Positions 4,827 to 49,023 of a stretch of DNA of 52,649 bases are shown one piece after another. Source of the DNA: an uncultured Clostridia bacterium (GTDB taxonomy: Bacteria > Bacillota > Clostridia > Oscillospirales > Ruminococcaceae); contig CANQNF010000019.1 in the NCBI GenBank assembly GCA_947625125.1, positions 1 to 52,649 on the forward strand, given 5' to 3'. The first letter of the stretch is position 1, and the number at the start of each line of letters is the position of its first letter. The position numbers were made by a program, and so were the translations under genes. Below the pieces are notes generated by a model. The model was not told the origin of the DNA, did no database searches, and saw only the letters and a list, made by a program, of their open reading frames with translations.

Positions 4827-4922
4827 TGCAAGGGCGGAGCCCGCTCGCTTGCGCGAGCCCGACGGCTTCGCCGTCGGGGCCCGGCCCCAAAGGGGGCCGG
4901 GCCGGGGGCTCCGCCCCCGCAG
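4827..4922. repeat. GC-rich three-hairpin (four-way junction) element, copy 1
   Basis: Closing stem GGGCGGAGCCC (4832-4842) with GGGCTCCGCCC (4906-4916), extended by CTGC/GCAG. It encloses three perfect hairpins: CTCGC/GCGAG (4844-4857), CCGACGGC/GCCGTCGG (4859-4877) and CCCGGCCCC/GGGGCCGGG (about 4880-4901). No open reading frame of convincing character lies here. It fills most of the gap between solute-binding gene B and the GH30 gene. Confidence 0.85.
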
Positions 4923-5058
4923 GCACTCGCGGCTGCCGCCGGCCGCATGTCCTGCCGTTCTGCAAGGACTTTGCCGCGCACATATGCTATAATAATCGTA
5001 AACGATTATTATAATTTATTTTAGTCAAAATCATCAAATCCCGAAAGGAGCGAGCAGA

Positions 5059-6657
5059 TTGAAAAGAGCCGTTGCCGTTTTAGCGGCAGTTTTAATGCTT
5101 TTTCTGACAGCTTTTCCCGCATATGCCGCAAAACCGGAAGAGACCGTCTCCGTCGACCTGTCAAACGAACACCAAACAATCGACGGGTTCGGGGCGTCCT
5201 ATACCTGGTATCTCGGCTGGGCGGTCAATCACAATCAGTCCGAGACGATATGGGACTGGGTCTTTAACGAGACCGAATTCAACATTTTGAGATTCCGCGA
5301 CCTCAATTCCGTCGTCAACGCCGACGAGGCGGCAATGCCGAAAAAGGGCTACCCCGAATACTACACCGTCTACAAGGCCGCCATAGACAGGGGCATAGAC
5401 CCGACCGTTCTGGTCACGTCCTGGGGAGAGTACGACCGCGGCCTCGACTGGGTCGTCTATGTCGACGACGACCCGTCCACAAGGGCGCCCTACTTCACCC
5501 TCGCCAAAAATTCCGACGGCGAGTATGAATATGACGTTTTGGCAGATTTCTGCGTACAATCGGTAAAATATTTCTTCGACGCGGGCATTCCCGTGGACTA
5601 TTTTTCCATCTCGAATGAAATAGAGCTTCAGGACGACCGAATGGACGAAAAGGGCAACCCACGCGACGCCGCAGGCTTCTTCTTCGGCGAAGAGGAGACC
5701 GAGTATCACTGCTGCTACTGGAAAGCTCATATTGCCGTCTACAATGCCTTTAAAGAGGCTTTCGGAGAGTATGCGCCGAAGATTCTGGGAGCAGAGACGA
5801 TGGCGGGCTACGAGGATCTTTTGCACCGCTATCTCGACAAGGTCATCGAGGAGTGCCCCGAGAGCCTTGAGACCATCGGCCACCACCTCTACGGCACAGA
5901 TTTGAGCGAAAACAATCTGAGAAAAGTCGGAAACCTCTCGAAAGATTACAAGCTCTGGATGACCGAGTGGTACGACAACAATTTCTTCGAGCATGCCGAG
6001 GTAATGGTCGACGAATTCGTCTATGAAAATATTTCGGCATACATCTACTGGAACGGCGTTTGGTGCGCCGATCTCGGAAACTGCATAATCGAAGTGGGCG
6101 CAGACCCCAATTCCGATATACAGAGAATGGGCAACCACTATATCATGGAGCATTTTTCAAAATATGTCAAAAAAGGCTACAAGCGCGTCGAGGTGACAGA
6201 TCAGCTCGGCACGAAGTTTGCGGCGTTCAAATCCCCCGACGAGTCAAAGCTTGTCGTCATCGCGATGAACCCGACCGAAAAGACCGAGTTTATGACGCTC
6301 GACATCGGCGGCAGGGAGATTTTAGGCTCGCAGGTCTTGCTGTCGACCGAGGGCGCGAACCGCTTTATGAACGAATATTTGCAGGATATGGGCGAATATG
6401 AGGACGAGCTGGAGATCCCCTCGCGAAGCCTCATGACCGTCGTTCTGGAACTGCCGGGGGACCCGAACTACGTCGAGCCGGCGGTCGAAAAGGCCGTGAA
6501 CCCGTATGTTAAAACGCCCGGCACCGGCATAAGCGTTCTGAGCATTGTCGGCATCGTCCTCGCAGTCTGCGCAGCCGCCATAGTCCTCGCAGCGGTGATA
6601 GTCGTCAAGAGTGTGAAAAAGGGCGGGAAGTCCCTTGGCGACGAACCGAAAGAATGA
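5059..6657 (+). CDS. Membrane-anchored GH30-type glycoside hydrolase
   Basis: A 532-residue exported enzyme. Residues 1-23 form a signal peptide ending AYA. The QTIDGFGAS block (residues 39-47) is the hallmark of clan A family 30. The acid/base glutamate is predicted at E187 (SISNE) and the nucleophile at E303 (MTEW). A beta-sandwich side domain follows. The C-terminus has one membrane helix (about 492-517) and a basic tail with KKGGK, so the enzyme would be displayed on the outer face of the membrane. Family 30 members act on xylan, beta-glucans or beta-1,6-glucans; the GH10 xylanase in this window makes a xylan role plausible, but this is inference. The start is TTG 5059, supported by AAAGGAG (5044-5050) eight bases upstream. 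Confidence 0.8.
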   Translation: MKRAVAVLAAVLMLFLTAFPAYAAKPEETVSVDLSNEHQTIDGFGASYTWYLGWAVNHNQSETIWDWVFNETEFNILRFRDLNSVVNADEAAMPKKGYPEYYTVYKAAIDRGIDPTVLVTSWGEYDRGLDWVVYVDDDPSTRAPYFTLAKNSDGEYEYDVLADFCVQSVKYFFDAGIPVDYFSISNEIELQDDRMDEKGNPRDAAGFFFGEEETEYHCCYWKAHIAVYNAFKEAFGEYAPKILGAETMAGYEDLLHRYLDKVIEECPESLETIGHHLYGTDLSENNLRKVGNLSKDYKLWMTEWYDNNFFEHAEVMVDEFVYENISAYIYWNGVWCADLGNCIIEVGADPNSDIQRMGNHYIMEHFSKYVKKGYKRVEVTDQLGTKFAAFKSPDESKLVVIAMNPTEKTEFMTLDIGGREILGSQVLLSTEGANRFMNEYLQDMGEYEDELEIPSRSLMTVVLELPGDPNYVEPAVEKAVNPYVKTPGTGISVLSIVGIVLAVCAAAIVLAAVIVVKSVKKGGKSLGDEPKE

Positions 6658-6674
6658 TCCGCCTTTATAACAGT

Positions 6675-6715
6675 ATAAGCGCAAGGGCCGCCTCACTCCC
6701 TTGCGCTTATCTTTT
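6675..6715 (+). terminator. Rho-independent terminator after GH30 gene
   Basis: A 13-base-pair stem, ATAAGCGCAAGGG with CCCTTGCGCTTAT, is followed by CTTTTAAT. It separates the GH30 gene from the promoter of alaS. Confidence 0.85.
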
Positions 6716-46851: not shown

Positions 46852-46882
46852 TTATACAGAATAAAGAAGAGGAGCATTTATC

Positions 46883-48832
46883 TTGAACGAATTTGACGAA
46901 ATTACACAGAACTCGACTGCGGTCGACAAATCGAATAACTACGACGCAAGCGAAATACAGGTCCTTGAGGGGCTTGAGGCGGTAAGAAAGCGCCCGGGCA
47001 TGTATATCGGCTCCACCGGTCCTAAGGGGCTTCATCATCTTGTCTATGAGATAGTCACGAACTCCATCGACGAAGCTTTGGCCGGGTACTGCGACCGAAT
47101 CGACGTTGAGCTTCTGCCCGGGGACATCGTAAGAGTCACCGACAACGGACGCGGTATCCCGGTAGGAATCCACCCGAAAGAGGGCATTTCCGCCGCGACG
47201 GTCGTTTTCACGGTCCTGCATGCCGGAGGAAAATTCGGCGGAGGCGGATATAAGGTCGCGGGCGGCCTGCACGGAGTCGGCGCTTCGGTCGTAAACGCTC
47301 TGTCGGAATGGCTGGAGCTTACTGTTCGGGACGGAGAGCATATATACTACCAAAAATTTGAAAGAGGACATTACGAGCACGAGCTCGGCATCGTCGGCGA
47401 CACCAAGGAGACCGGCACCACCATCGTCTTTAAGGCCGACCCGGAAATTTTTGAGCAGTCCACCGAGTACGATTACGACACGCTTTTGCAGATGCTCAGA
47501 GAGCAGGCGTTTTTGAACGCCGGCGTTCGCATCGTATTTTCCGACAGGCGCAAGGGCGAGGACAACACCGTCGATCTGCAGTACAACGGCGGAATCAGGG
47601 AGTTCGTCACGCATATCCATAACACTCGCGGGCTCGATGTACTCTCCCCCGACGTTATCTATGTCAGCGGGGTCAAGGACGACTATACCGCCGAGGTCGC
47701 CATGCAGTATAACGACAGCTATAACGAGCTGGTTTTAAGCTTTGCGAACAACGTCCACACGCCCGACGGCGGCACTCATGAGACAGGCTTCAAGAACGCC
47801 CTGACGAAAGTCATAAACGACTACGGCAAAAAGTTTAATCTTTTAAAGGACAATATAAAGCTTTTGGGCGAGGATGTAAGAGAGGGACTTACAGCGATAG
47901 TGTCAGTCAAGCTTACAAACTGCGAATTCGAGGGCCAGACCAAAGGCAGGCTCGGCAATCCCGAGGTGAGGCCTTTTGTCGAGGCGCTTGTATATGAAAA
48001 GCTGATGAACTACTTCGAGGAGAACCCCGCCGTCGCCAAGACTATTTTTGACAAGTCGGTGCAGGCACAGACGGCGAGAGAAGCTGCGAAGCGCGCAAGA
48101 GAATTAACGAGGAGAAAAACCGCCCTTGAGTCGGCCTCTCTCCCCGGAAAGCTCGCCGACTGCTCGGAAAGAGACCCGTCTCAGACCGAAATTTTCATCG
48201 TCGAGGGAGACTCGGCCGGCGGCTCCGCCAAGGAGGGTCGCGAGAGAAAGTACCAGGCGATTTTGCCGCTTTGGGGAAAAATGTTAAACGTCGAAAAGGC
48301 CAGAATAGACAGGGTCTACGGCAACGACAAGCTCACCCCGGTAGTCACCGCCCTCGGCACATCCATCGGCGAGGACTTCGATATTTCAAAACTTCGCTAC
48401 GGAAAAGTTATAATCATGGCGGACGCGGACGTCGACGGCTGCCACATAAGAACGCTTCTTCTGACGTTCTTCTTCAGGTTTATGCGCCCGCTTATCGAGC
48501 AGGGGCATATCTACATCGCCCAGCCGCCGTTATTTAAAGTGGTCAAGGGCAAGCAGGTTAGGTATGCGTTCTCTGACGAGGAGAGAGACCGGGAGATTGC
48601 CGAACTTGGCGGAAAGTGCGACGTACAGCGCTACAAGGGCCTTGGCGAGATGGATCCCGAGCAGCTTTGGGAGACCACGATGGACCCCGAGACCCGCTCC
48701 ATCATAAAAATATCCCTCGAGGACGCGGTCAAGGCCGACGAGACGTTCACCATCTTAATGGGCGACAAGGTCAACCCGAGGCGGGAATTCATAGAGAAAA
48801 ACGCGCAGTTTGTGCAGAATCTCGACTTTTAA
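46883..48832 (+). CDS. gyrB: DNA gyrase subunit B
   Basis: ATPase subunit of gyrase, which adds negative supercoils. 649 residues, normal for Gram-positive GyrB. GHKL ATPase motifs: [10 protein letters not shown] (Asn/Glu site), [30 protein letters not shown] metal motif [10 protein letters not shown] near residue 435 and the DADVDG segment near 515; C-terminus ends with the conserved [14 protein letters not shown]. The start is TTG 46883 with GAAGAGGAG eight bases upstream. It is separated from gyrA by a membrane-protein gene and a GC-rich repeat element. Confidence 0.98.
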
Positions 48833-48942
48833 TTTCGCATATCGGATACGGGCAGGGGCGCGAAAAAAAGCGCTGTAATGCATAAGTCAAGGATGAAACG
48901 ACGGGCACTCGCCCTGAGCCCGAGCTGATATATACCGAGGGC

Positions 48943-49023
48943 GCAGCCCGGCCCGCAGGCTTTTGGCCTGCGGGCGGCCGCCGATAGGCGGCAGGTCCGG
49001 CCGGAGGCCGGGCCCCGGGCTGC
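48943..49023. repeat. GC-rich three-hairpin element, copy 8 (gyrB-gyrA operon)
   Basis: Closing stem GCAGCCCGG (48943-48951) with CCGGGCTGC (49015-49023). Inside: CCCGCAGGC/GCCTGCGGG (48952-48974), a GCCGCC/GGCGGC hairpin (48976-48994, loop GATA) and CCGGCC/GGCCGG (48998-49012). It lies between gyrB and the YcxB-like gene. Confidence 0.87.

Follow-up and report, generated by a model that had tools for sequence, protein, structure and literature searches.

A family of intergenic three-hairpin elements with a conserved fold in an uncultured Clostridia bacterium and its relatives

Eight three-hairpin elements in the window

The window analysed here is the whole 52,649-nt stretch of contig CANQNF010000019.1 (assembly GCA_947625125.1) from an uncultured Clostridia bacterium; it is contig C19 of a 3.17-Mb genome, here called G000. 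It carries eight copies of a GC-rich element in which a closing stem surrounds three hairpins. An earlier note, made from the sequence alone, had claimed eight copies with exactly three hairpins and an AGCCC/GGGCT core, and fold detection in the window bore out the plan and found the core in 8/8 copies. Each has 9-12 uninterrupted Watson-Crick closing pairs and three tandem hairpins, and the sites are those first indicated, with starts shifted by 0 to 48 bases. The detector, set to accept closing stems of 7 pairs or more, found no ninth copy in the window. Under a laxer setting, three Markov-shuffled windows gave 18 candidates in total, all of them two-hairpin.

Element 1 (4832..4916; no strand is assigned to this or any other copy) has an 11-bp closing stem, GGGCGGAGCCC, and hairpins at 4843-4858, 4858-4878 and 4878-4903. 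Element 2 (9759..9835; three hairpins in a 9-bp closing stem, GCAGCCCGC) lies in the gap between alaS (7023-9677) and a HIT-domain (hinT) gene; an open reading frame (ORF) at 9705-10286 spans it, with the HIT domain starting only at residue 80. Element 3 (10992..11072; 9-bp closing stem GCGAAGCCC, three hairpins) separates a phosphoribosyltransferase gene from recG. Beyond its closing stem there is an outer stem, GTCCGTCCTCTTCTGCC, with one mismatch in the pairing, and homologous flanks, one each in the relatives G009 (L171) and G004 (L248), also adjoin elements. Element 4 (19532..19616; 12-bp closing stem GGAGCCCATCCC, three hairpins) adjoins a DegV gene, and no element was found at the corresponding site of G009 (aligned) or G004.

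Element 5 (25163..25234; 9-bp closing stem CGAAGCCCC, three hairpins) adjoins serS, which is on the minus strand. Element 6 (28271..28366; 12-bp closing stem), in the parA/parB gap, has three hairpins that are long, at 11, 13 and 11 bp; no element was found at the corresponding G003 site. Element 7 (37631..37707; 10-bp closing stem, three hairpins) lies in the jag/mnmE gap, and its site in G003 and G010 shows one simple hairpin, its left side matching the DNA left of the element. Element 8 (48942..49024; 10-bp closing stem CGCAGCCCGG, three hairpins) is indeed between gyrB and gyrA, although an additional 189-codon ORF preceding gyrA also occupies that gap; no element was found at the corresponding sites of G003, G004, G009 and G010.

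The claim that the copies are always intergenic was nearly right. Element 6 lies within an ORF at 27282-28442 (TTG start), and element 4 overlaps an ORF by 39 bases. Because the recognised domains begin well downstream of the ORF starts (ParB from residue 129 and a weak acyltransferase match from residue 77, respectively), both copies are probably intergenic after all. The statement that primary sequence differs greatly holds between families, but sequence families do exist: in the sampled G000 DNA, the copy at 4832 belongs to a 13-copy family and that at 10992 to a 6-copy family.

Hairpin number, arm orientation and copy number

A strict anchor, consisting of two exactly complementary 9-letter arms 48-89 bases apart, was applied to 1.9 Mb from 11 genomes. 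It gave 120 places, every sequence different, in 11/11 scanned genomes (G000 27, G010 20, G003 18, G009 16, G004 14, G291 9, G270 6, G346 5, G006 2, G079 2 and G148 1). The best folds had three hairpins in 119 places and two in one, and shuffled interiors (n=600) gave one hairpin in 252 cases, two in 277, three in 64 and four in 7. Among the eight window copies only the one at 4832 passes this anchor, since mismatches are frequent in the outermost letters of the arms; for the remaining seven the support comes from fold detection in the window.

A wider search with GGCGNAGCC and its exact complement, at least 10 closing pairs in all and a span of up to ~240 bases, returned 127 places, with 120 at 50-89 bases apart, 7 under 30 and none beyond 89. 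The detector found three hairpins in 118/119 well-covered interiors and two in the remaining one. In 123 arm pairs the 5' arm carried GNA and the 3' arm TNC; the converse arrangement occurred in 0. Judged from the listed sequences, 14 of the 15 same-orientation arm pairs include an arm-like part belonging to an inner hairpin, and the last one, L178 12002, looks like chance. The closing arms are GGC-GNA-GCC and GGC-TNC-GCC in fixed orientation, each itself foldable into a GNA mini-hairpin, and they enclose three near-perfect hairpins that are almost linker-free.

In 849 kb of G000, 47 structures with at least three hairpins were counted as elements, and 45 had exactly three. A fold-based scan for GC-rich DNA yielded 65 spots, among them these 47; the 18 others include a few degenerate copies (L147, L152 6880, L153 and L154) and other palindrome families. 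Stretches of G000 chosen regardless of hits (400 kb) held 17 further copies, which extrapolates to ~135 per genome. Over all genomes, the detector read three hairpins in 129 of 143 elements, four in 7 and five in 7; in the four- and five-hairpin reads that were checked (L003 5587, L009 3611, L169 10160 and L183 1129), an outer stem had been read as the closing stem or one hairpin had been split. Two of the 18 other spots of the fold-based scan are deletion remnants. L146 15246 keeps a closing stem and a single hairpin, and L152 15696 keeps an outer stem, one hairpin and one half of the closing stem.

Distribution of carriers

The carriers are gut bacteria related to Ruminococcus. G000 is placed there by inference from its nearest MnmG relatives, whose records are metagenome-assembled genomes labelled Clostridia, Oscillospiraceae and Ruminococcus, several of them from animal guts. 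Among 21 genomes (G000 included), the GAAGCCC...GGGCTTC pattern had 14-30 matches in each of G000, G003, G004, G009 and G010 and 4 in G006; a reversed control pattern gave 0-2 matches, and a few of the listed matches were unstructured. Seven other same-genus genomes had 0 matches in six cases and 1, unstructured by eye, in G005. In samples of 25-60 kb from each of these seven non-carriers, the detector returned no GC-rich structure with three hairpins; it did return one with two hairpins (G001) and, at higher AT content, three more that had two, two and six.

Of 394 genomes sampled from the order, 11 matched the nine-letter arms. Structured copies were established in G000, G009, G270 and G346 of the same genus and in G291, G079 and G148 of a second genus (g12) of the same family, whereas the single listed arm matches in G018, G030, G059 and G376 showed no three-hairpin plan by eye. 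In 200 kb from the three g12 genomes, partly picked at hits, 12/12 elements had exactly three hairpins, and their closing stems, for example GCGGCGAAGCCGC, retain GGC-GNA-GCC. Carriers were thus found in two genera of one family. Carriage by phages was considered and rejected: 69 viral stretches match the arm pattern, and the detector found three hairpins in 0/69. In G291, four elements lie inside 2.5 kb (L278 163-2574), with adjoining repeated DNA of ~200 bases.

Paired stem changes and loop replacement at orthologous sites

By flank matching, elements occupy shared positions in at least two of the genomes G003, G004, G010, G009 and G000. The ortholog set comprises 46 de-duplicated pairs, some matched by one flank only and some G003-G010 matches being between family members. 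A comparison in register was confined to 24/46 pairs, so that no element counted twice, and to 35 hairpins whose loops are equally long and whose base pairs are at least 60% identical. In these, 258 base pairs had not changed, 29 had changed in both partners and 6 in one, a 29:6 ratio that flatters pairing because the detector permits at most one mismatch per hairpin and so under-counts one-sided changes. With that reservation, the counts support the earlier suggestion of selection for structure or of a mechanism copying palindromes.

A looser register count, for hairpins with at least half of their pairs the same and one mismatch permitted per hairpin, gave 68 paired changes, 27 one-sided, 200 length differences and 918 unchanged, with 4 hairpins classed as replaced. 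Closing stems in that count had 455 pairs the same, 9 double changes and 0 mismatches, the zero being by construction. A sequence-aligned count (44/46 pairs; two below 60% identity excluded) gave 38 paired, 103 one-sided, 7 other and 190 gapped positions; it was set aside for the pair-wise register because the alignment (A1) mis-registers members with unequal hairpin lengths.

The loops behaved differently from independent sites. Among 34 orthologous triloops, differences at 0, 1, 2 and 3 positions numbered 13, 7, 4 and 10, against 5.9, 14.1, 11.1 and 2.9 expected under independence. The 21 changed triloops comprised 5 exact inversions, 3 class flips with another middle base, 6 changes of the middle base only, 3 that leave the GNA/TNC class and 4 that start outside it. 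Loops are replaced or inverted whole between sister species while the stems change in pairs. Template switching homogenises arms and inverts spacers, and the yeast examples include GAA to TTC (PMC8604942); the paired stem changes and the whole-loop swaps and inversions are what such switching would leave.

A phoU-like gene, an element and a response-regulator-like gene (both genes recognised by eye) occur together at L258 1517, L257 1523 and L290 11358. G000 and G009 share 90-93% identity in this region, more than in their gyrB region (about 79%), and G270 has the same element and gene order; the element was probably carried along in a transfer of the region. This highly conserved copy does not lie beside a transposase gene.

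Wobble pairs, loops and gene context

Paired changes could also reflect selection on RNA, the element then being a structured part of transcripts that protects mRNA 3' ends, serves in processing or acts as a regulatory RNA. The very stable fold and the paired changes agree with this. The pair and loop counts come from related copies and are not independent. G-T wobble, in folds permitting it at the 120 anchored places, made up 26/4470 pairs on one strand and 36/4482 on the other (0.6-0.8%); for 13 copies in tandem contexts, the gene-sense strand had 2/466. That is 0.4-0.8% on either strand, whereas 14 host tRNAs folded alike had 27/315 (8.6%) and 13/309 (4.2%) on their antisense strand. The 120 folds contained 14 single mismatches within stems and 13 other bulges or internal loops beside the 4470 pairs; a Watson-Crick-biased method counted 8 G-T, 7 A-C and 25 other mispairs of 1891. 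Of what a structured RNA should show, the paired changes are present, but wobble pairs stay at 0.6-0.8% on both strands.

The loops follow a rule of their own. The 450 hairpins in the 143 elements include 344 triloops, and in 279 of these the loop is GNA or the complementary TNC, compared with 70/361 triloops in G000 hairpins outside elements. Four-base loops were GNNA or TNNC in 30/74 cases in elements versus 79/396 outside, and C-G closes the loop in 270/284 triloops. GNA and GNNA loops form very stable DNA mini-hairpins, d(GCGAAGC) having a GNA loop (PMC4686876). Sense-strand triloops in tandem contexts were balanced between both forms (GNA 74, TNC 90, other 32), unlike RNA genes, in which stable loops are reported to be 8- to 66-fold more frequent than their reverse complements (PMC8794818).

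The 143 elements comprised 78 in tandem, 19 in convergent and 21 in divergent gaps, 11 at edges and 14 inside crude gene calls, the last class being unreliable because the calls used G000 codon statistics for every genome. In favour of an RNA, the elements are intergenic, and in G000 they are densest in convergent gaps (14 in 22.9 kb) and sparsest in divergent ones (5 in 38.8 kb), with 25 in 95.0 kb of tandem gaps. Over all loci, many of which were picked for holding an element, divergent gaps were again the poorest (21 in 56.9 kb), but tandem gaps were the richest (78 in 110.6 kb; convergent, 19 in 36.5 kb). Flank polarity was scorable in 25/50 G000 elements and could be compared with gene direction in 13, which split 7 to 6 and showed no relation. 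T-runs adjoined the closing stem in 6/286 flanks versus 5.5% of random 20-mers. The earlier note had proposed a search of Rfam, and no described family matched at gathering score in the window, L278, L170 or L020; element 8 had two sub-threshold matches (E 0.09 and 0.43).

Because wobble is scarce, loops are strandless, gene orientation is not clear in the 13 elements scored, T-runs are few and Rfam gave no gathering-score match, an RNA or transcript-processing role is disfavoured, and we consider a structured RNA unlikely. These data suggest that it is the DNA, rather than an RNA, in which the shape is maintained.

Mobility and flanking sequences

Sequence families in G000 have 13, 6, 4, 2 and 2 copies at unrelated sites, and in one of them two members (L009 18340 and window 4832) carry their hairpins in the opposite order with respect to the flanks. 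Several elements face short intergenic DNA in a relative, namely L020 17659 (versus G009), L170 9209 and 7025 (versus G000) and window 19532 (versus G009). Among the three options raised in the earlier note, which were a structured RNA, a mobile palindromic element and a transcript-processing module, the mobile palindrome fits best, given the multi-copy families, unrelated sites and element-free orthologous sites.

With regard to the terminal inverted repeats expected of miniature inverted-repeat transposable elements (MITEs), the arms GGCGNAGCC keep a fixed orientation, 123 to 0, but paired and conserved flanks extend outside them. A further outer stem (score at least 9) was found in 24/47 G000 elements and 0/18 elsewhere, and in 5.6% when flanks were paired at random. 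The conserved flanking letters are ACCTCCTGC and GGAGTGCGG in G000, TTGCGCCTTGGTG in G003, G004 and G010, and GGGAAGA-GTGC in g12.

Comparison with known elements and other palindromes

Like REP/REPIN sequences (repetitive extragenic palindromes), the elements are short, intergenic and present in many copies, and REP hairpins likewise have conserved ends, a freer middle and paired changes; a clover-like alternative fold of REPINs is mentioned too (PMC3116915). However, REPINs in that account consist of two REP inverted repeats with a nearby RAYT gene, whereas the present elements have three free-sequence hairpins and a closing stem. Three hairpins within a closing stem (119/120) take the place of two REP palindromes forming one hairpin, and the RAYT (Y1) transposase is absent from four of six carriers in the relatives sample.

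The repetitive and double-hairpin elements of sponge and Allomyces mitochondria are intergenic and often GC-rich, with conserved stems and varying loops, and triple-hairpin regions were noted in one sponge mitochondrial DNA (PMC2800124). Conserved stems with free loops are found here as well, although our loops are mostly GNA or TNC and so not fully free. The mitochondrial elements belong to organelle DNA, and the sections of that paper used here describe no fixed three-arm closing stem or GNA rule.

Bacterial MITEs such as ERIC, RU and Correia are small, non-coding and intergenic, have inverted-repeat ends and are moved in trans; they keep their sequence and usually leave target-site duplications. 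Our elements are likewise small, non-coding and intergenic, and may have inverted-repeat ends and be moved in trans. Their interiors, in contrast, vary between families and species while the fold stays, and no duplication was seen. The mini-hairpin d(GCGAAGC) shares the C-GNA-G triloop and G-C stem; it is treated as a chemical and aptamer motif in PMC4686876, and its use as a building block of genomic repeats was not found in the literature searched. No description of an element like the present one was found in open-access titles and abstracts, a search that did not cover subscription papers.

Other palindromes also occur in G000. A second family, of the CCCCCTCC-loop-GGAGGGGG type, has ten copies in a 3.4-kb part of the window (29687-33036) and two more at 44617-44640 and 52476-52495, some of them within longer CCCCCACCCCCG inverted arms. 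In addition, one or more multi-hairpin families with GGGGACCC, GCAGCCCGCAGGCTGC and GGCAAAACTGTCC hairpins were seen at L145 18288 and 18424, L159 4352, L163 5264 and 5400, L013 13272, L148 14176 and L002 1752. The copy at L148 14176 is flanked by GGAGTGCGG and CCTCCTGCG motifs similar to those of the three-hairpin element.

Interpretation

We hold with moderate confidence that these sequences are miniature interspersed DNA elements, non-autonomous and of one family, in which the folded single strand is conserved rather than the sequence. A strand exposed during replication or repair would fold into a four-way junction; a trans-acting enzyme might recognise the arms and the junction and copy or move the element; template switching at the hairpins would keep the arms complementary and flip the loops; and selection on the DNA fold may maintain three arms and GNA loops. 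This proposal builds on what was observed, namely the fold, the arm orientation, the loop rule, the paired stem changes, the loop replacement, and the shared and non-shared sites. From these we infer single-stranded folding, recognition of the fold and spread caused thereby.

Several points weigh against it, including the under-counting of one-sided changes given above. No mobilising gene was found among the three families tried (Y1/RAYT transposase, SbcD and IS110-type transposase): an encoded partner, as the earlier note had suggested seeking, did not emerge, none of the three tracking the carriers. In the six carriers of the relatives sample (G000, G003, G004, G006, G009 and G010), the Y1/RAYT family (PF01797) is absent from G003, G004, G006 and G009, with 10 matches in G000 and one weak match in G010, and the IS110-type transposase is absent from G004, G006 and G009. 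SbcD, which acts on long hairpins, scores above cut-off in G000, G006 and G009, below it in G003 and G004, and is absent from the carrier G010. Among 13 same-genus genomes it is above cut-off in three, all carriers, and absent from seven non-carriers. No target-site duplication was seen at aligned element-free sites, where the genomes are too diverged for close intergenic alignment. No clean outer boundary was seen, and the conserved flank letters outside the core differ between genomes. Many elements of G003, G004 and G010 are positionally shared, so movement there is old or slow. Finally, GNA loops could be partly a mutational outcome.

An autonomous copy with a gene between its arms was also sought; the sampled DNA listed 24 wide-spaced arm pairs, and the promising one that was examined (L153 16483 and 17925) turned out to be normal coding sequence, the others being judged from the listing.

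If template switching alone kept making and mending palindromes in this lineage, the elements would be a functionless by-product. Arm homogenisation and loop inversion are traces of such switching, and other palindrome families exist in the genome, but a by-product predicts any hairpin number and any loop, whereas three hairpins were found in 119/120 places, with one closing core across two genera and one arm orientation. Mutational mending alone is probably not enough, given the hairpin count of three and the loop rule, and we regard this explanation as quite unlikely. A chromosome-architecture site akin to REP/BIME arrays, at which the junction would bind a host protein, for example a Holliday-junction or HU-type protein, is likewise unlikely. 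The near-linkerless four-way junction does resemble a Holliday junction, HU-type proteins prefer junction DNA, and the elements are spread through intergenic DNA genome-wide and retained at orthologous sites. Such a site is not needed in the genus, however: 7/13 same-genus genomes have no structured match among those listed for one arm pattern, and these seven lack three GC-rich hairpins in the 25-60 kb sampled from each, other closing arms not having been searched genome-wide. Intrinsic terminators are highly improbable, for although GC-rich hairpins follow genes and the counterpart of element 7 in G003 and G010 resembles a simple terminator-type hairpin, T-runs are scarce beside the closing stem (6/286 flanks, against 5.5% of random 20-mers) and several copies lie within apparent operons.

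Beyond the reading as miniature interspersed DNA elements, we tentatively propose a new element class defined by DNA shape, in which the GNA-capped three-arm four-way junction is the unit selected and the arm letters drift by template switching. The junction would then be the substrate of a putative trans-acting junction- or hairpin-specific recombinase.

Paired stem changes are usually read as a sign of functional RNA, and here a large natural set combines strong pairing with almost no RNA signature, a pattern that points to DNA shape as the level at which selection or copying acts. The elements allow template switching and the inversion of loops to be followed in bacterial genomes. Pipelines for RNA discovery can take them as a caution, and an enzyme recognising folded single-stranded DNA could be sought with them as a guide.

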